From: Chlorobiota bacterium | GTDB lineage: Bacteria; Bacteroidota; Ignavibacteria; OLB7 | Reading direction: 5' to 3' | Length of the DNA stretch: 64,000 nt | Assembly (NCBI GenBank): GCA_028287785.1 | Contig: JAQBOZ010000009.1 | Span: forward strand, 1-64,000 | Shown: in pieces, positions 380 through 37,849 of the stretch | Layout: every line of letters begins with the position of its first letter | Numbering within the stretch: position 1 is the first letter of the stretch | Notes under the pieces: model-generated | Told to the model about the DNA's origin: nothing | The model's database searches: none | Seen by the model: only the letters and a program-made list of their open reading frames with translations | Position numbers and translations under genes: made by a program

Positions 380-403
380 GGGGGTACACAATGATGTACT
401 CCC
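380..403 (+). promoter_or_regulatory. Palindrome GGGTACA-N6-TGTAC, candidate operator 1
   Basis: The sequence GGGTACA (382-388), centre CAATGA, then TGTACTCCC (395-403) forms an imperfect palindrome about 130 bases upstream of the secreted-protein start at 532. The same motif recurs at 1251-1270 and, on the opposite strand, at 37829-37849. In each case it lies upstream of a gene for a secreted protein and reads in the direction of that gene. A regulator binding site is inferred; an RNA hairpin is the alternative. Confidence 0.5.
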
Positions 404-531: not shown

Positions 532-996
532 ATGCGAAATTACCGGATCTCGTTTCGCTCGCTTATCGCAACCGGAGCTGCTGTTGCAGTAATCGGTCTT
601 GGGGCCTTTGCGGCGCCAGGCTCTGCGGCCTACAAGTCGCTACCGGCATCAGGAAACTCGGAGGATGTTATCGTGCAGATCGCCTGCGCGCATTCCAGTC
701 AGTTTCCCATGGATGTCGTCTTGAACTATTCAAATGCCAGCCATGGCCAATCGTTTTCCAGTAACACACTGGACTGCCCACCCGCTGGTCAGTCACTAGG
801 TTCGGCGGGGAGAACCGTTCGCGGTATAGCCGGTGACGGCAATCTCGAGACGGCGACGGCCTTCGGCGTTACGGTCACCCGCAATGGGCCAGAACGCGCG
901 ATCGATGTCGACCATGATGGTGTGAATGACGGCACCGCCCGGATCTACTGCTATGACGGTTTCACCTATTACGCAATCAAGATCTCGGCGGATTAG
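532..996 (+). CDS. Small secreted protein of unknown function
   Basis: The 154-residue product starts MRNYRISFRS and has a clear Sec signal peptide (basic start, hydrophobic stretch around residues 10-28, AAPGSAA cleavage region). The mature part has three cysteines, an acidic stretch DVDHDGVND that resembles a calcium-binding loop, and no family I recognise. An ATG at 511 is in the same frame, but starting there would put extra residues before the basic start of the signal peptide, so 532 is preferred. The gene stands alone: two palindromes lie upstream and a strong hairpin terminator follows at 1051-1084. Export to the periplasm or cell surface is predicted; no role can be assigned. Confidence 0.7.
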   Translation: MRNYRISFRSLIATGAAVAVIGLGAFAAPGSAAYKSLPASGNSEDVIVQIACAHSSQFPMDVVLNYSNASHGQSFSSNTLDCPPAGQSLGSAGRTVRGIAGDGNLETATAFGVTVTRNGPERAIDVDHDGVNDGTARIYCYDGFTYYAIKISAD

Positions 997-1250: not shown

Positions 1251-1270
1251 GGGTACACAAAGATGTACCC
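1251..1270 (+). promoter_or_regulatory. Palindrome GGGTACA-N6-TGTACCC, candidate operator 2
   Basis: A perfect 7-bp inverted repeat GGGTACA/TGTACCC surrounds the centre CAAAGA, 346 bases upstream of the T9SS protein start at 1617. It shares the arms and the CAAnGA centre of the site at 380-403 in the same orientation. This is the best copy of the three. Confidence 0.5.
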
Positions 1271-3894: not shown

Positions 3895-3920
3895 AGTACT
3901 TACGAGAAAGAAATCTGATA
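3895..3920 (+). repeat. IS630-type terminal inverted repeat, left
   Basis: It starts AGTACTTACG directly after the TA at 3893-3894 and pairs with the repeat at 4971-4996 with six mismatches in 26 positions. Confidence 0.8.
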
Positions 3921-4913
3921 TTTCCGACCGATATTCTTCAGGATATGTTCGAGGGATTCGGTGAGCTTCTCCCAGTTTTCATAGGCATCCAACGGTAGCC
4001 GGGAGTATTTGATCCGCTTCCACAGAATCTCGATCATGTTTAACTCCGGCGAATATTGCGGCAGATATTTCACGTTCACATCTGCCTTCGCCCATACGGC
4101 TCGTCGTTGCTGGAACATTCCGCTTGTATGGAGGCTTGCATTGTCCAGCACCAAAACAACCGGCCGCCGATGGCGACGGCGCTTCAAACACCCGACAAAC
4201 TGGTCGATGCAGGCGACGATCAATTCACCCGTCCCGTAGCCATCGATCATGTAGGACCGGAAGCTGCCCAGGCAACTGAGGAACCCAAGCACCGTGTGCC
4301 GATGGCCATTGGAGTTGCTCAGACAACTCAGCGACGCTCCCGGCTTCTGCCAGGCATACGGCACTTCCGGCGTCAGGCTGAACCCGATTCATCGACATAG
4401 TACAGATCAAGCATGCCCTGCTGCTCGGCTTGATGCAGGTCCAACAACTCCGCGTGCGCCTGTTCGAATGCCTTCGCGTTGCGTTTCGGCTCCAGTGTCC
4501 GACGCACGCGACGCCACTTCCAGCCGCAACTGCGCAACAATGCCCGGAGGGTGTCGCGGCTTATCAGCGTGCCCGTCTTTTTTTAACACCGCGAGCGCTT
4601 CGCTGATGCGTTGCGGGTTGTTCGCAACCGCCTCGAGGACATCGTCCTGCTCAGCCACCGATAACGCGCGTGGTCGTCCCGGTTTCGGCGCATCCGATAG
4701 TCCGTCGAATCGGTCATTCGTCCATGCATCGATCCGCTCGCTGATCGTGTTGCGATGGACCGAGAAGATATCGGCCAGCGTATCGATGCTGTAGCCACGG
4801 GCACGCAGAACGATGGCGTGGGCGCGCTGCCGGACACGATGCGTTGGGCTGGACTTCATCAGGTTCTCAAGCTCCTGCTGGTCCGCCGGTGTCAGTGCTG
4901 ATACGATCTTCAT
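3900..4913 (-). pseudogene. IS630-family transposase with two frameshifts
   Basis: The N-terminal part (from 4913, MKIVSALTPADQQ) carries the helix-turn-helix region and GRPRALS of IS630 transposases. The C-terminal part (to 3900) carries two DDE catalytic sites: Asp in VLVLDNASLH and Glu in YSPELNMIEILWKR. The first catalytic Asp (YYVDES) lies in a different frame between them. The T7 run at 4578-4584 (A7 in the gene) is one base longer than needed; with A6 the frame reads KKTGTLISRDTL as in active relatives. Near 4382 one base is missing between DESG and FSLTP. The lesions cancel each other, but the original frame has a stop between them at 4407. Slippage on the A-run could bypass only the first. 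The copy is inactive unless the sequence has errors. Confidence 0.8.
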
Positions 4914-8563: not shown

Positions 8564-9844
8564 ATGAACATAAACTCATCGGCAACGCTGGAGCGGGTCT
8601 ACGACCTCCGCCAGCGGAAGATCCTCAGCAAGATCATCGACAAGGACACCACGATCTCCCTGGAAGGGCGCGATCCCCTGGAGAACACGATGGTCCTCAA
8701 CATGGGGCCGCAGCATCCGGCCACGCACGGCGTGCTTCGCGTGCTGCTCCGCCTGGATGGCGAGACGGTGGAAAAATGCGTTCCCGAGCTGGGATATCTC
8801 CACCGGGGATATGAGAAGCTGGGGGAGAATATCTCCTTTCACGAGTTCCTGCCGCATACCGACCGGCTCGATTATCTTTCGCCTCTTTCCAACAACGTCG
8901 GCTACGCCCTGGCGGTGGAAAAGGCCGCCGGCATCGAGACGCCGGAGCGTGCCGTCTGGATCAGAACGCTTATCTCCGAGCTGGCGCGGATCTCCTCGCA
9001 CCTGATGGCGATGGGGGCGATGGCGATGGATGTCGGCGCGGTGACGATGCTCCTCTGGACATTTCGCGAGCGGGAAAAGCTGTACGATATCTTCGAGAAG
9101 ATCTGCGGCGCCCGCTTCACAACCAGCTACACCCGTATCGGCGGCGTGGCGAATGACTTCACCCCCGATGTGCTTCCGATGATCCGCAAGTTCATCGAGG
9201 AGTTTCCCGCCAACCTGCGCGATTTCGAGGGGCTGATCAACCGGAACCGGATCTTCGTCGAGCGCGTCAGCGGGATCGGCGTGATCACGGCGCAGGATGC
9301 GATTGCGCTTGGCCTGACCGGCGCCTGCCTCCGTGGCTCCGGCGTGCCGCACGATCTCCGTCGCGATGAGCCGTACCTGATGTACGATCAGCTCGATTTC
9401 GATGTGATCACCTACAGCGATGGCGACTGCCTTTCCCGCTACCTGACCCGTGGCGACGAGATGAAGGAATCGGTGAAGATCGTGAACCAGCTTCTCGGCA
9501 GGATTCCCTCCGGCCCGACACTGGCGGACGATGCCAAGAATGTGCTGCCGGGGAAGACGGAGATCTACACGAAGATGGAGGAGCTGATTCATGACTTCAT
9601 GCTGATCAATTTCGGCGTGCAGCCGGAGCCGGGGGAGATATACTCGGCGATCGAGGCGCCGAAGGGGGAGCTTGGCTTCTATATCGTCTCCGACGGCACC
9701 GGCCACGCATGGCGGATGAAGATCCGCTCGCCATCGTTCTGCAACCTTCAGGCCCTTACCCCGATGTGCGAGGGCTCGATGATCTCCGACGTGGTCGCCA
9801 TCATCGGCTCGATCGATCCCGTGATGGGAGAGGCGGACAAGTAG
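8564..9844 (+). CDS. nuoD: NADH-quinone oxidoreductase subunit D
   Basis: The 426-residue product is the 49-kDa subunit of complex I, related to [NiFe]-hydrogenase large subunits, and forms much of the quinone-binding cavity. Hallmarks are NMGPQHPATHGVLR near residue 47, the block PELGYLHRGYEKLGE, CLRGSGVPHDLRRDEPY, and the C-terminal DGTGHAWRMKIRSPSFCNLQ. Length fits the family (about 400) with a short N-terminal extension. GGAG precedes the ATG. It is probably expressed with nuoC, although a repeat lies between them, and is closed by a strong terminator. Confidence 0.95.
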   Translation: MNINSSATLERVYDLRQRKILSKIIDKDTTISLEGRDPLENTMVLNMGPQHPATHGVLRVLLRLDGETVEKCVPELGYLHRGYEKLGENISFHEFLPHTDRLDYLSPLSNNVGYALAVEKAAGIETPERAVWIRTLISELARISSHLMAMGAMAMDVGAVTMLLWTFREREKLYDIFEKICGARFTTSYTRIGGVANDFTPDVLPMIRKFIEEFPANLRDFEGLINRNRIFVERVSGIGVITAQDAIALGLTGACLRGSGVPHDLRRDEPYLMYDQLDFDVITYSDGDCLSRYLTRGDEMKESVKIVNQLLGRIPSGPTLADDAKNVLPGKTEIYTKMEELIHDFMLINFGVQPEPGEIYSAIEAPKGELGFYIVSDGTGHAWRMKIRSPSFCNLQALTPMCEGSMISDVVAIIGSIDPVMGEADK

Positions 9845-9874
9845 CGCATCGCGTTCAGACCGAAACAAACTGCT

Positions 9875-9918
9875 CGCCGCGTGATATCGGAACAGCCCGA
9901 GATCGCGCGGCGTTTTTT
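9875..9918 (+). terminator. Rho-independent terminator of nuoD
   Basis: CGCCGCGTGATATCGG (9875-9890) pairs with CCGAGATCGCGCGGCG (9897-9912) at 14 of 16 positions, followed by T6 at 9913-9918. Confidence 0.8.
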
Positions 9919-10281
9919 ATGCGGAGTTCTTTGAACGGGCCAGGATGGACCGTGAGGTCGTTTGTCCAGTCGCTACCGACATCGGGCACGATGTGCCGCA
10001 ACGGATCGGCCTGATTGCTGCTCCGACGGGAGCGGACCGGCTTCAGGATATCCTTGCGCCGATGTCGGGTTGCCTTGTAACTTATCCATCACGAATTGCC
10101 CCGCGGCCCGGTTCCATCGCGGCCTGGCAGTTGCCCCGGATACTATCGCATCGACACTCAATCATTGAAGACCCCACTGATACGGGGACGTAATGATCAT
10201 CCCCCGTCCGCGCGTGCCGGCCATTGTCGCGTAGAAGAATGTGCAGAGGGAGGGGATGGATCGAGGGAGATACCACATCCT
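9919..10281. other. Gene-free stretch upstream of TPR regulator
   Basis: Short frames here lack any recognisable product. The one notable element is the GC-rich near-palindrome at 10184-10205. The rest shows no structure I can support. Confidence 0.35.
10184..10205 (+). promoter_or_regulatory. Degenerate operator-like palindrome
   Basis: GGGGACGTAATGATCATCCCCC agrees at 15 of 22 positions with the candidate operator at 382-403, including the AATGAT centre and the G/C ends. It is 77 bases upstream of the regulator start at 10282. The symmetry is weaker than in the other sites, so the match may be fortuitous. Confidence 0.25.
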
Positions 10282-11940
10282 ATGAAGAACATCAAAAAGC
10301 ATGATGCCTGTCGCGGATCGGCAGGCGACGCGAGGGAGAAGATCGCCCATCTCCTTCAGAGAAGCGAGGAACTGATTTCGAGCGATTACCGATGCGGAAT
10401 ACGGAGCGCGCGCGAGGCGCTGCGACTGGCCCGGCGGCTGGATGATCCGCGCCTGATGGTGGAAAGCCTTTTCATGATGGAGAACTATTACTTCGCGAGG
10501 GAGCAGTATCCCCGGATGCTTGAGGTGCTGACGGAGTCCGGCGTGCTGCTGGAGCGGATTCCCGACGAGCATGATTTAAGGGTCGCGCTCTGCCATAAAC
10601 TCGGGTCGCTCCATCTGACGCTGGGGGATCTGCCGAAGGGGCTGGAAGTGCTGACCTCCGCGTTCGATTATCTCGATCGCGTGGACGCGAGGTTGGCGGC
10701 GCTGATCCTCGGGACGACCGCCGATACCTACCTGCAACTTGGATACTACCCGAGAGCGTTCGAGCTTCTCGGTCGCGTGGAGAAGATGGCGGAGGAGAAC
10801 GGCTTCCGGAGCTATGTGATCCACTGCATGGAGTGTACCGGCCGGGCGTTCATGATGCTGGGAGACTACGACAGGGCGATCGAGAAATTCCGCAGCGCCG
10901 CATTGCTCTGGAATGAGATCGGCGAGCGGCTGGGAGAGGGGGCGGTACTGGGGAACATCGCCAGTATACTCGCCAACCGGGGTGACCACGATGGCGCGCT
11001 GGAGATGCTTGCCGCCGCCACCGCGATTCACCAAGAGTTCGGCACGCAGCAGCAGGAGGCGTATTGCCTTCTGACGAAGGCCGGCATCGTCATTCGGTCG
11101 AGCAGCGACGAGGCGCTCGACTGCGTCCGGAAGGCGCTCGCGATCTTCGAGTCAATCGGCGACAGGCAGGGGCGCAGCATCGCTCTTGCCGATATCGGGG
11201 AGATCCATGTCAGGCGCGATGAATCGGCGGAGGCGCTTTCCTGTTTCCTTGAAGCGCTCAGGCTGGCCCAGGAGATCGGCTATCGGGCCAAGGAGCTTCT
11301 GCTCCACGAATCCCTGGGCCGGGTCCATGAAATGCTGGGGGATACCGGAACATCGCTGAAGCACTATAAACGCTACATGGAACTGGAGCGGGAGCTGGAC
11401 GGCCACGAGACGAAAAACGCGATGGCGATGGCGCAGGCGCGGGCGGAGATCGAGCGGGCCGAAAAGGAAAAGGAGATCGCGCTGCTGAGGAACGCGCAGC
11501 TTCAACTGGAGATGGAGCGTAAATCGAAGGAGCTGACGGCGATGGCGCTCCGGCTGGTGAGGAACAACGAGCTGATGGATGCTCTCGGCAAGGAAATCGG
11601 ATCATCGCTGAAAAATCCCGGAGATGCACGGAGCCTTGCCAGGACGATGCAGAAGCGAATCGAGGAGAGCACGCAGCCGGAGGAGGCGTGGAGGCAGTTC
11701 GAGGAGCAGTTCCAGCAGGTCCACCACGGATTTCTCATCAGGCTGCACGATCTCTATCCTGCGCTGCGACCGGCGGAGCTGAAAATCTGCGCGCTCCTGA
11801 AAATCAATCTCTCCAGCAAGGAAATTGCCACGATGCTGAATATCAGCTTCCGTACCGTGGAGCTTCACCGCACCAATATTCGTAAGAAGCTCGCCCTTCC
11901 CAACACCGCCAATCTTTCGCTGTTTCTCACCTCGACGTAA
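10282..11940 (+). CDS. TPR regulator with C-terminal LuxR-type HTH
   Basis: The 552-residue soluble protein has about eight tetratricopeptide-like repeats (roughly residues 25-370), a charged coiled coil (about 375-440, rich in Glu/Lys/Arg), and a C-terminal helix-turn-helix. The HTH contains RPAELKICALLKINLSSKEIA followed by NISFRTVELHRTNIRKKL, the LuxR/GerE pattern used by many Bacteroidota TPR regulators. There is no phosphorylation domain, so it probably senses a partner through the TPR part. It is the first gene of a group with the T9SS protein at 12108 and a second LuxR-type regulator at 14041. The start at 10282 is preceded by GAGGGAGA; the frame stays open further upstream without features. 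Confidence 0.75.
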   Translation: MKNIKKHDACRGSAGDAREKIAHLLQRSEELISSDYRCGIRSAREALRLARRLDDPRLMVESLFMMENYYFAREQYPRMLEVLTESGVLLERIPDEHDLRVALCHKLGSLHLTLGDLPKGLEVLTSAFDYLDRVDARLAALILGTTADTYLQLGYYPRAFELLGRVEKMAEENGFRSYVIHCMECTGRAFMMLGDYDRAIEKFRSAALLWNEIGERLGEGAVLGNIASILANRGDHDGALEMLAAATAIHQEFGTQQQEAYCLLTKAGIVIRSSSDEALDCVRKALAIFESIGDRQGRSIALADIGEIHVRRDESAEALSCFLEALRLAQEIGYRAKELLLHESLGRVHEMLGDTGTSLKHYKRYMELERELDGHETKNAMAMAQARAEIERAEKEKEIALLRNAQLQLEMERKSKELTAMALRLVRNNELMDALGKEIGSSLKNPGDARSLARTMQKRIEESTQPEEAWRQFEEQFQQVHHGFLIRLHDLYPALRPAELKICALLKINLSSKEIATMLNISFRTVELHRTNIRKKLALPNTANLSLFLTST

Positions 11941-11978
11941 TTCGTTCCGTTTCCGTTCATCGACATCTCATATCCCAC

Positions 11979-11998
11979 TATGTGGTAAATATGTGGTA
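11979..11998 (+). promoter_or_regulatory. Tandem 9-bp direct repeat, candidate operator
   Basis: TATGTGGTA occurs at 11979-11987 and again at 11990-11998, an 11-bp period that places both copies on the same DNA face. It lies 38 bases after the TPR regulator and 110 before the T9SS gene, so it could be a binding site controlling the latter. No experimental basis. Confidence 0.35.
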
Positions 11999-12107
11999 CG
12001 CTCCGCCACGTCCCCGCCTATATTCGCTGGTGAAAATCGATTTTCATTTGCAATAAAATCCGGCGAATTACAGCCGGTATTCACCAACGCAGATTGGAGA
12101 CATCATC

Positions 12108-13952
12108 ATGTCACGAAAAGGAAATCACCTGAGATATGCGATGCTTGCACGCATCATCCTGGGGTTGCTTGTTTCCCTGGGTGCGGCCGGCACCGCGAGC
12201 GCGCAGCAGTGGCAGAGCACGTTCGGCGGTTCATGTATCGAGGCAGCCTATACCGGCGTACAGCCGGTATCCACCGGTGGATATATATTCACCGGCGTCA
12301 CGTTCAGCCCCAGTGGAAATTGCCAGAACTGGACCTCGGATATTTATGTGGTGAAGACGAACGCCAACGGCACGCTTGCGTGGTCGTTCGCCTACGATAT
12401 CGGCAACGGGACCGATACCGGAAGCTGTATCCGCGAGTGCGCGAACGGCGATTTTATCGTAACCGGGGTGACCAGAAATCCCATGCACGCGGGTGGCTGT
12501 AATTCGGAAGATATATTCCTTCTGCGACTGAATCCGGCCGGAGGAGTTATCTGGGCGAAAACATACGGCACGACCCGTCAGGAAATGGCGATGACGGTCA
12601 TTGAAACCACCATGGGCCTCCAACCCGGAACATCCGCGGGTGATTTCGTTGTGTCCGGATATACGGTTAATACATTGAATGCCCGTGAGGGATATATCAT
12701 GAGGGCCACCAGCACTGGCACTCTCATCTGGGACAGAACCTATCCCAGTGCCGCCAAGTTGGATAATGAGATCATCACCGTGAAGGAATCGACGATCGGT
12801 ATCAATGTGGGGAATATCATTGCGGCCGGCTCCTGCGATCATAACTGGGGCAACTCCAGCTCCTATGCGCTCCTCATGGTGGTCAATGGCGGCAGCGGGG
12901 CAATCGTGACGGCAAAGACATTCGCGCCACCCGGGACTAACGTTAACTGGACGGGTGAATTTCAGTCGGTGGAGGAGCTGAAAGTCGGTGCTGGCAACCA
13001 GGGCGACATCGTCGCCACCGGATACCTCACGGTGCAGACCGTAAACGGTCCCGCCACGGAGATCTACGTCGTGAAGACCAATCCCGGGATCACCACTGGC
13101 CCACCCTTTTTTCTACCCCTGGCACAGCAGATCTACGGCGATATGGGGACAGGCCTGGATGCCGGCGCTTGTGTGCGTGAGAATACCACCAACGGACATC
13201 TGATAGTTACCGGCGTTACAACGCTTCCGGGCGGATTTGGCGGTGGTGATATGTTTCTGATGGAAATTGACCCGAACACCCTGCAGATAGTTGCTCCGGT
13301 GGGCTTCAGAATCTATGGAGGATCTGGAGCAGACGCGGGATTCTCCACCTCGGTTGTCCCGGGCAATGGGTATATCCTTGCCGGTTATACGCAGAGCCCT
13401 GGGCTGGTTCCTCCCATGGATCCGCAGCAGGCCTATCTGATCAAAACCACCAATGCCGGTGTCAGCGGTTGCAATGAAAAGCTGATACAGCCGCAGAACT
13501 CCGATCCCAGATACCAGATGGTCGTGGTCAGCCCCATCGGCCCCGGAATCGGCATCTCCTGCACTCCACAGGTTACGACTACCCCGGTGGACTGGAGCAC
13601 TGAACTCTGCTACAGCCCGTTCAGCACGCGACGGAATGACGGTGGCGATGACGGTATCTCCGGCATCGATGTATCTCCGTCGGTCGATGCCTCCTCGATC
13701 CTCGCCACGCCGAATCCCGTGAAGCGCGGTGAGCCTCTGCAGGTCGATTACAGCATGCCGAAAGCATCGGCGGTCACCATCACCGTAAGCGATGTGGCCG
13801 GAAAAATCGTGACCACCTTCCAGGCAAATGCCCGTGAGGGGGCCAATCGGATGACGCTTCCAACCCGCGGATGGTCGGTCGGAACGTACATTCTCGATAT
13901 CAACGGCGAGGGTGTTTCCACTACCCGCAAGATCATCGTCGGCGACAGGTAG
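12108..13952 (+). CDS. T9SS-secreted beta-propeller-like protein, paralogue 2
   Basis: The 614-residue product starts with a signal peptide (cut near ASAQQ, residue 33). It has repeats such as DIYVVKTNANGTLAW and GDFIVTGVTRN that suggest a beta-propeller, and ends with a T9SS type A sorting domain (ATPNPVKRGEPLQVDYS ... GTYILDI ... TTRKIIVGDR). The length and layout match the protein at 1617-3464. It should be displayed on or released from the cell surface. GGAG lies nine bases before the ATG. LuxR-type regulator genes flank it on both sides, and a hairpin terminator follows at 13963. Confidence 0.8.
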   Translation: MSRKGNHLRYAMLARIILGLLVSLGAAGTASAQQWQSTFGGSCIEAAYTGVQPVSTGGYIFTGVTFSPSGNCQNWTSDIYVVKTNANGTLAWSFAYDIGNGTDTGSCIRECANGDFIVTGVTRNPMHAGGCNSEDIFLLRLNPAGGVIWAKTYGTTRQEMAMTVIETTMGLQPGTSAGDFVVSGYTVNTLNAREGYIMRATSTGTLIWDRTYPSAAKLDNEIITVKESTIGINVGNIIAAGSCDHNWGNSSSYALLMVVNGGSGAIVTAKTFAPPGTNVNWTGEFQSVEELKVGAGNQGDIVATGYLTVQTVNGPATEIYVVKTNPGITTGPPFFLPLAQQIYGDMGTGLDAGACVRENTTNGHLIVTGVTTLPGGFGGGDMFLMEIDPNTLQIVAPVGFRIYGGSGADAGFSTSVVPGNGYILAGYTQSPGLVPPMDPQQAYLIKTTNAGVSGCNEKLIQPQNSDPRYQMVVVSPIGPGIGISCTPQVTTTPVDWSTELCYSPFSTRRNDGGDDGISGIDVSPSVDASSILATPNPVKRGEPLQVDYSMPKASAVTITVSDVAGKIVTTFQANAREGANRMTLPTRGWSVGTYILDINGEGVSTTRKIIVGDR

Positions 13953-13962
13953 CCATACATAC

Positions 13963-13995
13963 CGGGCGCTTCGGGGGATTTCCTCGAAGCGCCCG
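13963..13995 (+). terminator. Terminator after T9SS gene
   Basis: CGGGCGCTTCG (13963-13973) and CGAAGCGCCCG (13985-13995) form a perfect 11-bp stem with an 11-base loop, followed by TTT. Confidence 0.7.
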
Positions 13996-14040
13996 TTTCA
14001 ATCACCATGCTCGAACTCAGCTCCTATCAGGGTAATTATC

Positions 14041-14787
14041 ATGGCACGTTCCATCGATGATCTGCTGGACTTTATAAATGCGTTTCCAACTGAGCCCGAT
14101 CCGGTAAAATGGGGGGCGCAGGCATCCGGAATAATCAGAGAATTTCTTGGCGATGTCGATCTGGTGTGGATGAACCCCGGAGCCGTGGCTGTAGCCGCTG
14201 ATCCGGCAGATCCTGATACTCACCCGACAATCGGTGACAACGAAAGGAAATGGGAACAACTGGCGCTCTATATGCCGCCGGCCCCGATTTCCAATCACAT
14301 GATTCTGAAGTCATTTCATCTCAACGGTTTTCCAGCCGATGCATGTCACCCGTTGCACAGGTTCGATTATCATCTCCCGGACTACCCCTATCTGGGCTCG
14401 ATCGTGCTGATGCGGTTGAAATTTCGCCCCCCGATCCTGCCGGCGACCCTGCATCTGATGGAGGAAATGCAGTGCTTTATCGCCAGCCAGTTCCTCCGCG
14501 TTCGCCAGGTCTATCACGAGCAGAACCCGATTGTCGGGATATTCAACAGTATTGTGGACTCCATCGTGGAGGAAATCGGGCTTACCGAGCGGGAAAAGGA
14601 GGTGATGCTTCCACGAGCCTTTGGAATGTCGTATCAGGAAATCGCCGATCAATTGCATCTGACCCCGGTTGCCATAAAGAAACGTGTACTCCGCATTCAT
14701 CGAAAAGCGAACGTGACCAGTCAGTCGCAGCTTTTCGGGAAATATTTCTCGCCGTATTACAGGGAGTATGTACGAATGGGAAAATAG
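14041..14787 (+). CDS. LuxR-type HTH transcriptional regulator
   Basis: The 248-residue protein has a C-terminal HTH with the LuxR/GerE signature: LTEREKEVMLPRAFGMSYQE followed by IADQLHLTPVAIKKRVLRIH. The N-terminal 170 residues show no domain I recognise; they contain many His, Pro and Trp residues and no obvious Asp receiver site. ATG 14041 is chosen because the frame before it continues into the terminator of the upstream gene; AGGG lies about ten bases upstream. Its position beside a surface-protein gene suggests local control, which is inference. Confidence 0.7.
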   Translation: MARSIDDLLDFINAFPTEPDPVKWGAQASGIIREFLGDVDLVWMNPGAVAVAADPADPDTHPTIGDNERKWEQLALYMPPAPISNHMILKSFHLNGFPADACHPLHRFDYHLPDYPYLGSIVLMRLKFRPPILPATLHLMEEMQCFIASQFLRVRQVYHEQNPIVGIFNSIVDSIVEEIGLTEREKEVMLPRAFGMSYQEIADQLHLTPVAIKKRVLRIHRKANVTSQSQLFGKYFSPYYREYVRMGK

Positions 14788-14800
14788 GAAGTATTCGTAC
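14770..14800 (+). terminator. Hairpin across the regulator stop codon
   Basis: GTACGAAT (14770-14777) and ATTCGTAC (14793-14800) form a perfect 8-bp inverted repeat spanning the TAG at 14785-14787. No T-run follows, so it may stabilise the mRNA end instead of terminating transcription. Confidence 0.35.
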
Positions 14801-15093
14801 GGCATCCGTTTCAATATTCAGAATTTCAAAAACTGCAATTGATGATCGATGGACATGCCAGGAAGCGACAACAAATTGATCATCTGCCGGGGAATAAGGA
14901 ATTCGCGTTAATCAGAGAGAGCAATCCTGAATCCCGGATTTCAACGAATTGCAACCACACGTTGTATGGAATAAATCGGCCTGCAAGACAGGTCGCATCG
15001 ATGGGGTCGATATTATCGCGTAAATCTCCCTGTCCCATACTATGGCTGGTATGTATGATCGATATCCTGACGGGTTGAGATGCGCCGGAACAG
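14801..15093. other. Gene-free stretch between convergent genes
   Basis: No gene or recognisable RNA is visible between the LuxR-type regulator and the convergent gene ending at 15155, apart from the hairpins at its two ends. Confidence 0.35.
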
Positions 15094-15127
15094 AATCGCC
15101 CGATCGATATGATTCGATCGGGCGATT
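15094..15127. terminator. Terminator of the minus-strand gene
   Basis: AATCGCCCGATCG (15094-15106) and CGATCGGGCGATT (15115-15127) form a perfect 13-bp stem with an 8-base loop, 28 bases past the stop of the gene at 15155. Confidence 0.7.
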
Positions 15128-15154
15128 TGATACATGGGCAACGTGATTGACGCA

Positions 15155-15868
15155 TTACGAATAAATCTGCCGCAGCAGTTTCCGTTTCGCCACCGGAAGA
15201 ATCGTCTCGTTGAACGGGAAATCCAGATCGGTCGCGAAAAAATATGTCGCCGGGTTGGGGAGATCGCGATTGGAGCGGATCATCTCCAGCTTGATATTTC
15301 CGGGGGAAAATTCGAGCGCCGAAAGGGGAAAGGTCCTGATCGACGTGGTCTTGAGGTTCCTGTACTGCTGGTCGGCGCCGGCGAAAATGGATATCTCGTA
15401 GCGGATCACATGGACCAGATCCTGCCGTATCTCCGGTAGAAGAAGATATCCCTCCTCGATGTACGAGGGGAGTATCCCCACTTCCTCCAGCTTCAGATTG
15501 TTGTCCACGAAATTGAAAATCGTCTGCCCCTCCTCGATCGCCGCAATGATATGCGGCAGCGACCAGTGAATCAGATCCTCGATCGCCCGTATCTGATCGT
15601 CCCCAAGCTCGAACCATTCATACACCAGCCGGTTGTTCTTCAGATCTATACCGGTGATCCGTTTCGGCATCTCCCGCTTTAACCCCTCACTCCCCTCGGT
15701 GATTTTTTTCAACGTGGAATAGAGCTCGATCAGGTCGGTAAGCGGCGGGTAGATCCGATTGTGGGAGAATTCCCTGCGGATCTTCTGCAACTCGCCGAGA
15801 ATCTGATATCTGCTCCGCTCGGAATCCCGTTGAGCGCCGATGAACATTTCCAAGTTCAAGTCATTCAT
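15155..15868 (-). CDS. Hypothetical protein, 237 residues
   Basis: I do not recognise the family. The protein starts MNDLNLEMFIGAQ, is soluble, has no signal peptide or membrane segment, and alternates charged helices (residues 15-60, 95-125) with a beta-rich C-terminal half. GAGGT lies eight bases before ATG 15868 and decides this start; the frame is open further upstream. It is monocistronic, divergent from mtaB, and closed by the hairpin at 15094-15127. The gene at 38053 encodes an equally long unknown protein, but I see no sequence similarity between the two. Confidence 0.65.
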   Translation of the reverse strand: MNDLNLEMFIGAQRDSERSRYQILGELQKIRREFSHNRIYPPLTDLIELYSTLKKITEGSEGLKREMPKRITGIDLKNNRLVYEWFELGDDQIRAIEDLIHWSLPHIIAAIEEGQTIFNFVDNNLKLEEVGILPSYIEEGYLLLPEIRQDLVHVIRYEISIFAGADQQYRNLKTTSIRTFPLSALEFSPGNIKLEMIRSNRDLPNPATYFFATDLDFPFNETILPVAKRKLLRQIYS

Positions 15869-37179: not shown

Positions 37180-37758
37180 TTAATGAATTTGTTCAGGGTT
37201 ACGAGTAGCCTCGTTGAAGGGGTAATCGACAAAGGATAGTATGGGCCTGGGGGGGGAGGAAATGCTTCTCATCATTAGTGCCAGTTGGTGATCGTTGTAT
37301 TTGGAGAGATCGAGATTGACTTTTCTTGTAAATACGGTATCTGAATTTTCGCCTTTCAACGTGCCGTAAGCGCTGGTGATGCGCTCCAGTGTTGAACCAT
37401 TCGAGGCGTCGATAAGATCGACGATGATAATGGCTACATCTCCGTTGCCCTCCCTGTCATCCCGGATATGCATGCTGATGTTGAGGTCTAGGGAAAGCAT
37501 TGTTTGTTTTGCCGTTGTGTTGAGGACTTCGCTAAACGACGTATCTATCCCAGGTCCTCTGTGGATCTCGTTTTTAAAGCGAATGACTTCTGATGTTCTC
37601 TCAGAAGGTTTTGTTGTTCCTCCGATGCGAATACTTGTGTTGATATGAGTTGATGGGTAATAGATCTGGAGGGCTTTCCCGGTGGTCTGGGCCGATGCTG
37701 CCGAGGTTCCGCCAAGGATTACGGCGACGGCTGCGAGTGTCAGGGGAAAAGACTTCAT
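37180..37758 (-). CDS. Secreted protein of unknown function, first of operon
   Basis: The 192-residue product has a signal peptide (LAAVAVILGGTSAASA) and a mature domain with alternating beta-strand pattern and no cysteines. I recognise no family. AAGGT precedes the ATG. Its stop TAA is followed two bases later by the ATG of the next gene, and a third gene follows after 36 bases, so the three form an operon of small exported proteins. The operator-like palindrome at 37829-37849 lies about 70 bases upstream of the start. Lower GC than flanking genes suggests transfer or weak selection. Confidence 0.6.
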   Translation of the reverse strand: MKSFPLTLAAVAVILGGTSAASAQTTGKALQIYYPSTHINTSIRIGGTTKPSERTSEVIRFKNEIHRGPGIDTSFSEVLNTTAKQTMLSLDLNISMHIRDDREGNGDVAIIIVDLIDASNGSTLERITSAYGTLKGENSDTVFTRKVNLDLSKYNDHQLALMMRSISSPPRPILSFVDYPFNEATRNPEQIH

Positions 37759-37828: not shown

Positions 37829-37849
37829 GAAGTACATCTTGATGTACCC
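37829..37849 (-). promoter_or_regulatory. Palindrome GGGTACA-N6-TGTACTTCC, candidate operator 3
   Basis: On the minus strand it reads GGGTACA, centre TCAAGA, TGTACTTCC, so it has the same arms, spacing and orientation toward its gene as the sites at 380-403 and 1251-1270. It precedes the three-gene secreted-protein operon. Confidence 0.5.

Follow-up and report, generated by a model that had tools for sequence, protein, structure and literature searches.

A lux-box-like dyad upstream of exported-protein genes and a family of GAF-like LuxR-type regulators: a candidate regulon in a Chlorobiota genome

The first 64 kb of contig C16 (JAQBOZ010000009.1) in the 4.75-Mb draft genome of a Chlorobiota bacterium (GCA_028287785.1, here G000), referred to below as the window, carry in this order on the + strand a gene for a regulator with a TPR array and a LuxR-type helix-turn-helix (HTH), P0001, a gene for a surface protein of the type IX secretion system (T9SS), P0002, and a gene for a second LuxR-type regulator, P0003 (Table 1). 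Analysis of the three families led to a promoter dyad, GTACA-N6-TGTAC, upstream of many P0002-like genes and other genes for exported proteins. The families, the insertion of the trio, the dyad with its enrichment and its fixed distance to a −7 box, and the adjacency of regulators and partner genes are all read directly from the sequence. The model uniting them, with P0003-family activators, lux-box-like dyads, a regulon of exported proteins, the inserted trio and a repeat at P0002, appears to us slightly more probable than its negation.

According to this model, the GAF-LuxR activators of the P0003 family would bind GTACA-N6-TGTAC and its variants near −44, where a promoter of the Bacteroidota type (−7 box TAnnTTTG) has its −33 element. 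The bound regulator would switch on genes for exported proteins, namely the partner genes adjacent to the regulators, many P0002-like T9SS proteins and other small exported proteins. The trio itself would have entered the lineage of this genome as an insertion. P0002 may keep the promoter geometry with a 9-bp direct repeat standing in for the dyad, and because of this replacement the gene probably answers to another LuxR-type activator, in the simplest case its neighbour P0001 or P0003.

The dyad was found through a k-mer count in the gaps between P0003-family regulators and their partners. A scan for shared words in the 200 nt upstream of P0002-like genes showed nothing; the dyads mostly lie 127-575 nt upstream. 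Within 600 nt upstream, the dyad was present at 13 of 30 P0002-like genes and at 11 of 648 others (Fisher p 2.5e-13, paralogues taken as independent). In four G000 contigs amounting to 1.26 Mb it precedes 5/7 P0002-like and 4/901 other genes. The count of exact matches is the independent test, the upstream dyad model having been trained on the same sites, and its loci and contigs were picked for holding members of the three families. Spacing is strict, with 11 sites in the 1.26 Mb at 6 and two in total at 3-5 and 7-10. Nine of the 11 count as intergenic, and the dyad ranks second of 1,024 pentamer dyads of spacing 6, behind a CRISPR-like array. Once an in-gene site (GTACAGGGCACTGTAC) is dropped, nine of the ten remaining sites precede, as judged by eye, a P0002-like gene (5) or an open reading frame (ORF) with a signal-peptide-like start (4), the lone exception being C16:151709. 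In a large CRISPR-like array at G000:C36:80154-103628 (L255, L256), CCCCA-N6-TGGGG is present 214 times, initially with a period of 61 bp.

The position of the dyad relative to the −7 box is also constrained. With TAnnTTTG as consensus and the two GTACAGGGCACTGTAC sites dropped before counting, a box matching at least 5/6 lies at +34 to +46 from the dyad start at 19 of 33 sites, nearly all of them at +39 to +41; shuffled controls gave a mean of 1.8 and a maximum of 6 (500 shuffles), and the other side of the dyad gave 2 at that distance. Upstream of genes in G000, TAnnTTTG is itself strand-biased (61 vs 23). At most box-bearing sites the dyad centre is found 35-36 bp upstream of the box centre. 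In Flavobacterium psychrophilum the sigma-A −7 box TAnnTTTG spans −12 to −5 (PMC9723704, in excerpt), and the usual target of LuxR homologues is a 20-bp palindrome with its centre at −42.5 (PMC4471428, in excerpt). If the box found here is taken as −12 to −5, the dyad would be centred at about −44 from predicted start sites, near the −42.5 expected of a class II activator promoter of the lux-box type.

One may also imagine that GTACA-N6-TGTAC acts as RNA, in a hairpin of the mRNA leader, or that it is a repeat element without a regulatory role, since the palindrome could fold into a 5-bp stem with a 6-nt loop and its A-rich core has the same orientation relative to the −7 box at most sites. 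The dyad is, however, located upstream of the fixed −7 box and should therefore escape transcription from that promoter, pairing outside the 5-bp arms is not conserved (flanks compared by eye), and the dyads are concentrated before exported-protein genes. Taken together this makes an RNA or repeat element very improbable.

P0003 is best explained as a divergent member of a lineage-specific family in which a GAF-like region precedes a LuxR-type HTH. Its GerE HTH scores 31.9 bits with PF00196 (gathering cut-off 23.5), and the gene belongs to a multi-copy family with seven matches in G000. An alignment model (E<=1e-12) searched against 61 genomes recovered near full-length members in four, G000 (7), G001 of the same genus (10, besides a contig-end fragment), G003 (1) and G004 (3), while in the remaining 57 the model matched the HTH part, gave a longer partial match once (G031, model positions 169-307) or found nothing. 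In G002, of the same family, neither a near full-length regulator nor a partner was found. A scan of 84,980 species with one short peptide pattern, from which the window's own genome may be left out, matched only three metagenome-assembled genomes, which by record title are Bacteroidetes (JAFDZV01), Chlorobiota (JAEUSP01) and Armatimonadetes (JADZEY01). A plasmid collection yielded no match to P0003 or to one partner protein.

For the putative sensor region of P0003, Pfam returned no GAF, autoinducer-binding or receiver match at E<=0.1, and Foldseek no match at E<=0.001. AlphaFold models of P0003 and its relative L152 (mean predicted local distance difference test scores 74 and 73) were compared with known folds. 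The N-terminal region of L152 aligned with the GAF domain of PDE2A at Z 10.7 (root-mean-square deviation, rmsd, 3.0; 143 residues), the top eight rows being GAF-bearing and LuxR-type receptors being present lower in the list, and that of P0003 aligned with the same domain at Z 9.0 (rmsd 3.6; 134 residues). The predicted structures thus point to a GAF fold in the N-terminal region of the family. A NarL-type response regulator was considered for P0003 and rejected on the missing Pfam receiver match and the GAF-like predicted fold.

Ten of the 21 members extend to the model start with an extra N-terminal module, a number to be read as at least ten since L142 and L157 are cut by contig ends. The module was scanned in eight of these and matched HTH_23, HTH_28, HTH_29 or HTH_32 in all eight, seven above the Pfam gathering score and L134 below it (E 3e-7). 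These models, and HTH_33, we take to be linked to IS630/Tc1-type transposases. The assignment is based on Pfam, the fold-comparison matches spanning only residues 165-404. No DDE domain was reported in the fused regulators, the one fused member compared with the insertion sequence (IS) protein of the window showed no BLASTP similarity to it, and nothing on a transposase-type HTH fused to a LuxR regulator was found in open-licence papers. P0003 has no such module. The IS protein belongs to window positions 3900-4913, an IS remnant or two-frame element with a DDE_3 ORF and an HTH ORF, presumably of the IS630 type. At orthologous loci of G000 and G001, the fused regulator is preceded by a large LuxR-HTH protein (L134:9874-12588, 904 aa; L140:4137-6800, 887 aa) that by eye resembles MalT; the two copies are 40% identical.

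Regulators of this family tend to be followed by a partner gene. It was the next gene found downstream of 15 of the 21, in the same orientation and at a distance of 133-751 nt. Its product is 167-229 aa long, starts like a signal peptide in 15/15 sequences of alignment A6 (by eye), contains CCP in 9/15 and ends in C-x-x-[TL]-C in 11/15. Sixteen copies exist in 4/61 genomes, the same four that hold near full-length regulators; the sixteenth has its regulator side cut by a contig end. Pfam and NCBIfam gave no credible match to the partner family, only single weak ones, and its profile found none at E<=1 among PDB sequences. Every regulator seen with the extra HTH module has a partner (10/10), and the six partner-less regulators (P0003, L132, L139, L143, L105 and L154a) are all without the module. 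In a phylogenetic tree with bootstrap support not settled, P0003 stands on a long branch with the likewise partner-less L132 and L139 as nearest rows, and the partner is retained throughout the starred groups of G000/G001 regulators, four pairs and one trio. The approximately unbiased test (p 0.49) neither establishes nor rejects that the six regulators without a partner form one clade. The L143 match holds a stop codon, and L154a is directly before a partner-bearing paralogue. A small protein with a T9SS tail (151-170 aa) follows the regulator-partner pair in three genomes (L137:8956-9468, L144:9671-10165, L147:9219-9674), and these pairs adjoin a conserved gene of 474-505 aa, about 80% identical and glycyl-tRNA synthetase-like by eye. 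The second dyad of L142 is followed by a similar small ORF.

In 8 of the 15 regulator-partner gaps we find clear dyad-like sequences with the customary spacing to a −7-like box, and the members of four orthologous pairs have variants in common: GTACACAAACATGTAC in L136 and L141, CTACACAAAAGTGTAG in L133 and L142, CTCCTCAAAAGTGTAC in L134 and L140, and TTCCxCAAAAGTGxAA in L135 and L138. It is mainly because regulator and operator variant pair up in this way that we infer the P0003 family to be the reader of the dyads. The regulon could be real and yet be read by another regulator, for instance a TPR-LuxR protein of the P0001 family or an unrelated activator, with the P0003 family merely adjoining some of the targets. 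LuxR-type genes are plentiful in the examined loci (23 TPR-LuxR, 18 P0003-like), dyads occur far from any P0003-family gene and 11 P0002-like genes do without one, all of which would suit another reader. This is nevertheless rather unlikely in our view, considering the dyad-like promoters in the gaps directly downstream of P0003-family genes, the variants common to orthologous pairs and the lack of a dyad upstream of the 23 TPR-LuxR genes. Reading by the P0003 family might be extended to signalling in multiple channels, where every GAF-LuxR regulator is matched by a dyad variant of its own and by an exported partner, often Cys-rich, that is encoded next door, about half of the regulators also have the transposase-type HTH module, and regulators, operators and partners co-diversify, the GTACA channel having expanded to the T9SS surface repertoire. 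We put this forward tentatively and consider it doubtful on balance, if somewhat less so than another reader.

Several observations weigh against the proposed regulon. The dyad model finds no dyad at P0002 itself or at 10 other P0002-like genes (11/30), and a dyad before only 2 of 32 other genes with T9SS tails; the dyad is therefore not a general signal of T9SS cargo. None was found upstream of P0003-family genes (0/17) or TPR-LuxR genes (0/23), and there is thus no sign of autoregulation. Nine of the 15 partner promoters score below 12 with the dyad model, the candidates at L137, L144 (two), L147 and L148 are weak, and the gaps of L156 and L157 hold no dyad candidate. Within the window, the dyad of the P0002 paralogue P0004 lacks a good −7 box at the expected place, and the predicted −7-like box of P0002, TATATTCG, matches at 5/6 only and is one of three such boxes in the 167-bp gap. 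Paralogues could, moreover, share upstream sequence by descent.

The sequence-only reading had singled out P0001, P0002 and P0003 as neighbours on one strand, and their domains are borne out by curated models. P0001 scores 36.4 bits with PF00196 (gathering cut-off 23.5) and has 16 matches in G000 at E<=1e-10. The tail of P0002 passes both TIGR04183 (38 bits, cut-off 23) and PF18962 (36.9, cut-off 27), its N-terminus has a hydrophobic stretch up to TASAQQ (judged by eye), and it has 21 matches in G000, in some cases several from one gene; both families are thus multi-copy. Such T9SS tails number at least 150 in G000, all 150 candidates scored having matched. P0002 was rejected as an SBBP beta-propeller lipoprotein of NF047494 (26.3 bits, curated cut-off 400), and Pfam gave no SBBP match at E<=0.1; a propeller fold may be suspected from a match to CylK (E 0.0012). 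The predicted paralogue was indeed found (P0004); the longest ORF there opens with GTG at 1125.

In contrast, the proposal that the three genes form a conserved neighbourhood, whose absence from relatives was named in advance as evidence against it, did not hold. G001 and G002 keep the order rhomboid, rhomboid, nuoC, nuoD, the gene at 15155 and mtaB, and between these flanks the trio is missing from both. DNA similarity ends at the end of nuoD and restarts at the 15155 gene, the two genes being 71 bp apart in G002 and 1,578 bp in G001. The contig of G003 runs out 664 bp past nuoD; in G004 nuoD is followed by other genes within its contig, and the stretch covered there shows no member of the trio. 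As judged from this comparison, the trio is not a conserved unit and is an insertion relative to G001 and G002. Control of surface display by LuxR-type regulators, the broader idea of the sequence-only reading, gains support at the level of families from a different motif, the dyad, and fails as local regulation within a conserved trio.

Table 1. Features of the window (aa, amino acids; an empty strand cell denotes a feature without assigned strand)
Feature	Positions	Strand	Description
Dyad GTACACAATGATGTAC	384-399	+	−7 box TATCTTTG at 423-430; upstream of ORF with signal-peptide-like start
154-aa ORF	532-996	+	Predicted regulon member with signal-peptide-like start; without Pfam match
Dyad GTACACAAAGATGTAC	1253-1268	+	348 bp before P0004 ATG at 1617
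P0004	1617-3464	+	Paralogue of P0002, also with T9SS tail; start likely at 1617
Trio-carrying stretch	9845-15154		Absent in two relatives between nuoD (8564-9844, +) and conserved gene 15155-15868 (−)
P0001	10282-11940	+	TPR array and C-terminal LuxR/GerE HTH regulator, 552 aa
9-bp direct repeat TATGTGGTA-aa-TATGTGGTA	11979-11998	+	Candidate activator site of P0002
−7-like box TATATTCG	12019-12026	+	5/6 to TAnnTTTG; predicted P0002 promoter
Palindrome TGAAAATCGATTTTCA	12031-12046		Perfect, 16 bp; 61 bp before P0002 start; no second exact copy in 1.03 Mb of loci
P0002	12108-13952	+	614 aa; SBBP-like repeats, then C-terminal sorting domain of T9SS type A
Hairpin P0002/P0003	13963-13995	+	14-nt arms, 93% complementary, 5-nt loop; terminator-like
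P0003	14041-14787	+	GAF-like domain and LuxR/GerE HTH regulator, 248 aa
192-aa ORF	37180-37758	−	Signal-peptide-like start; predicted regulon member
Dyad, reads GTACATCAAGATGTAC on −	37832-37847	−	Upstream of ORF with signal-peptide-like start; −7 box 4/6

Operators had also been suggested in the gaps, and here the outcome is divided. The tandem repeat before P0002 is real and occupies a promoter position comparable to that of the dyads, and a dyad precedes the 1617 paralogue, which is one of the 13 dyad-bearing P0002-like genes counted above. Of the 22-bp operator-like palindrome at 10184-10205, only ATGATCAT (10193-10200) is symmetric, and palindromes as such are not enriched in the window, with 297 of 8 bp against 330-378 in five shuffles and lengths 10, 12, 14 and 16 also at shuffle level. 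The perfect palindrome, the hairpin and the three dyads of Table 1 are additional to the features noticed earlier. Rfam at gathering thresholds gave two tRNAs and nothing else.

The centre of the direct repeat lies 34 bp upstream of the centre of TATATTCG, and shuffling of the flank produced such a box at 33-38 in 2% of cases and at 34-36 in 1.1%. Two copies of TATGTGGTA separated by 0-6 bases are seen at one place in G000 and nowhere in the same-genus genome. The 222 kb of intergenic sequence scanned contain exact 9-mer repeats of period 10-12 at 11 places. Tandem 9-mers of period 9-13 give 10 matches in the window against 0-4 in ten shuffles, several of the 10 overlapping or coding. Local activation of P0002 by P0001 or P0003 through the candidate site is plausible on this geometry, and the hairpin downstream suggests separate transcripts for P0002 and P0003.

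Whether the trio has any regulatory relation at all is a separate matter, and one compatible with the dyad regulon. A chance cluster drawn from large paralogous families comes close to being an even call: the trio is absent in G001 and G002, T9SS tails are common, the hairpin parts P0002 from P0003, and a TPR-LuxR gene directly precedes a P0002-like gene in just two of the 23 examined (P0001 itself and L095), a weakly similar one being found two genes downstream at L125. T9SS tails stand directly upstream of 3/23 and directly downstream of 2/23 TPR-LuxR genes, which is ordinary given their number in G000. The direct repeat at the activator position of the predicted P0002 promoter speaks against coincidence. 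Both P0002-like genes that follow a TPR-LuxR gene are without the dyad, as expected for a local activator, an observation only suggestive when 11 of 30 lack it. Near 12 of the 23 TPR-LuxR genes a protein of 728-1215 aa with TPR-type matches is encoded at most three genes away (loci including L113, L117, L119, L121-L124, L127, L128, L130 and L131); the only one scanned, at L122, is AAA/NACHT-TPR STAND-like with a weak DUF4062 match.

If the P0003-family model is true, T9SS surface proteins would, as a whole set and together with further exported proteins, be governed by lux-box-like activator promoters whose −7 box is of the Bacteroidota type, in a part of the Bacteroidota/Chlorobiota of which little has been cultured. 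A search of open-licence papers found no regulon of T9SS cargo genes defined by an operator like the dyad. A link between LuxR-type regulation and the T9SS has a parallel in Dyadobacter sp. HH091, where a LuxR solo (NarL/FixJ) was proposed to upregulate the T9SS and secretion; the basis there was gene neighbourhood together with expression, dialkylresorcinols were put forward as the signal, and the excerpted text mentions no operator of the dyad kind (PMC9606717). The PorXY-SigP pathway is also tied to the T9SS, but it is a two-component system with a sigma factor and is modelled, in the same excerpt, as raising T9SS components (PMC9606717). For Porphyromonas, the title of one study states that PorX does not directly regulate T9SS genes (PMC5005315).

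With GAF-LuxR and PAS-LuxR solos the P0003 family shares a sensor domain joined to a LuxR-type HTH without a receiver domain, and differs from them in being near full length in 4 of 61 genomes, all of one bacterial family, in its recurrent partner and in the transposase-type HTH fusion. The N-terminal module of the fused regulators resembles the DNA-binding domains of IS630/Tc1-type transposases in its matches to HTH models, yet it is joined to a GAF-LuxR regulator.

The regulator-partner family is apparently undescribed, and the dyad regulon would be a variant of lux-box-type regulation. Like the promoters of the proteobacterial quorum-sensing regulators LuxR, TraR and SdiA, it would combine a LuxR-type HTH behind a putative sensor with a dyad near −42.5 (PMC4471428, in excerpt). 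Unlike in those systems, the sensor is GAF-like with no Pfam autoinducer-domain match, the −7 box is of the Bacteroidota type, the genes predicted to be controlled encode exported and T9SS proteins, the regulator gene is often followed by that of an exported partner, and about half of the regulators have an extra HTH module. Should the model be right, the sequence would predict which regulator reads which operator.

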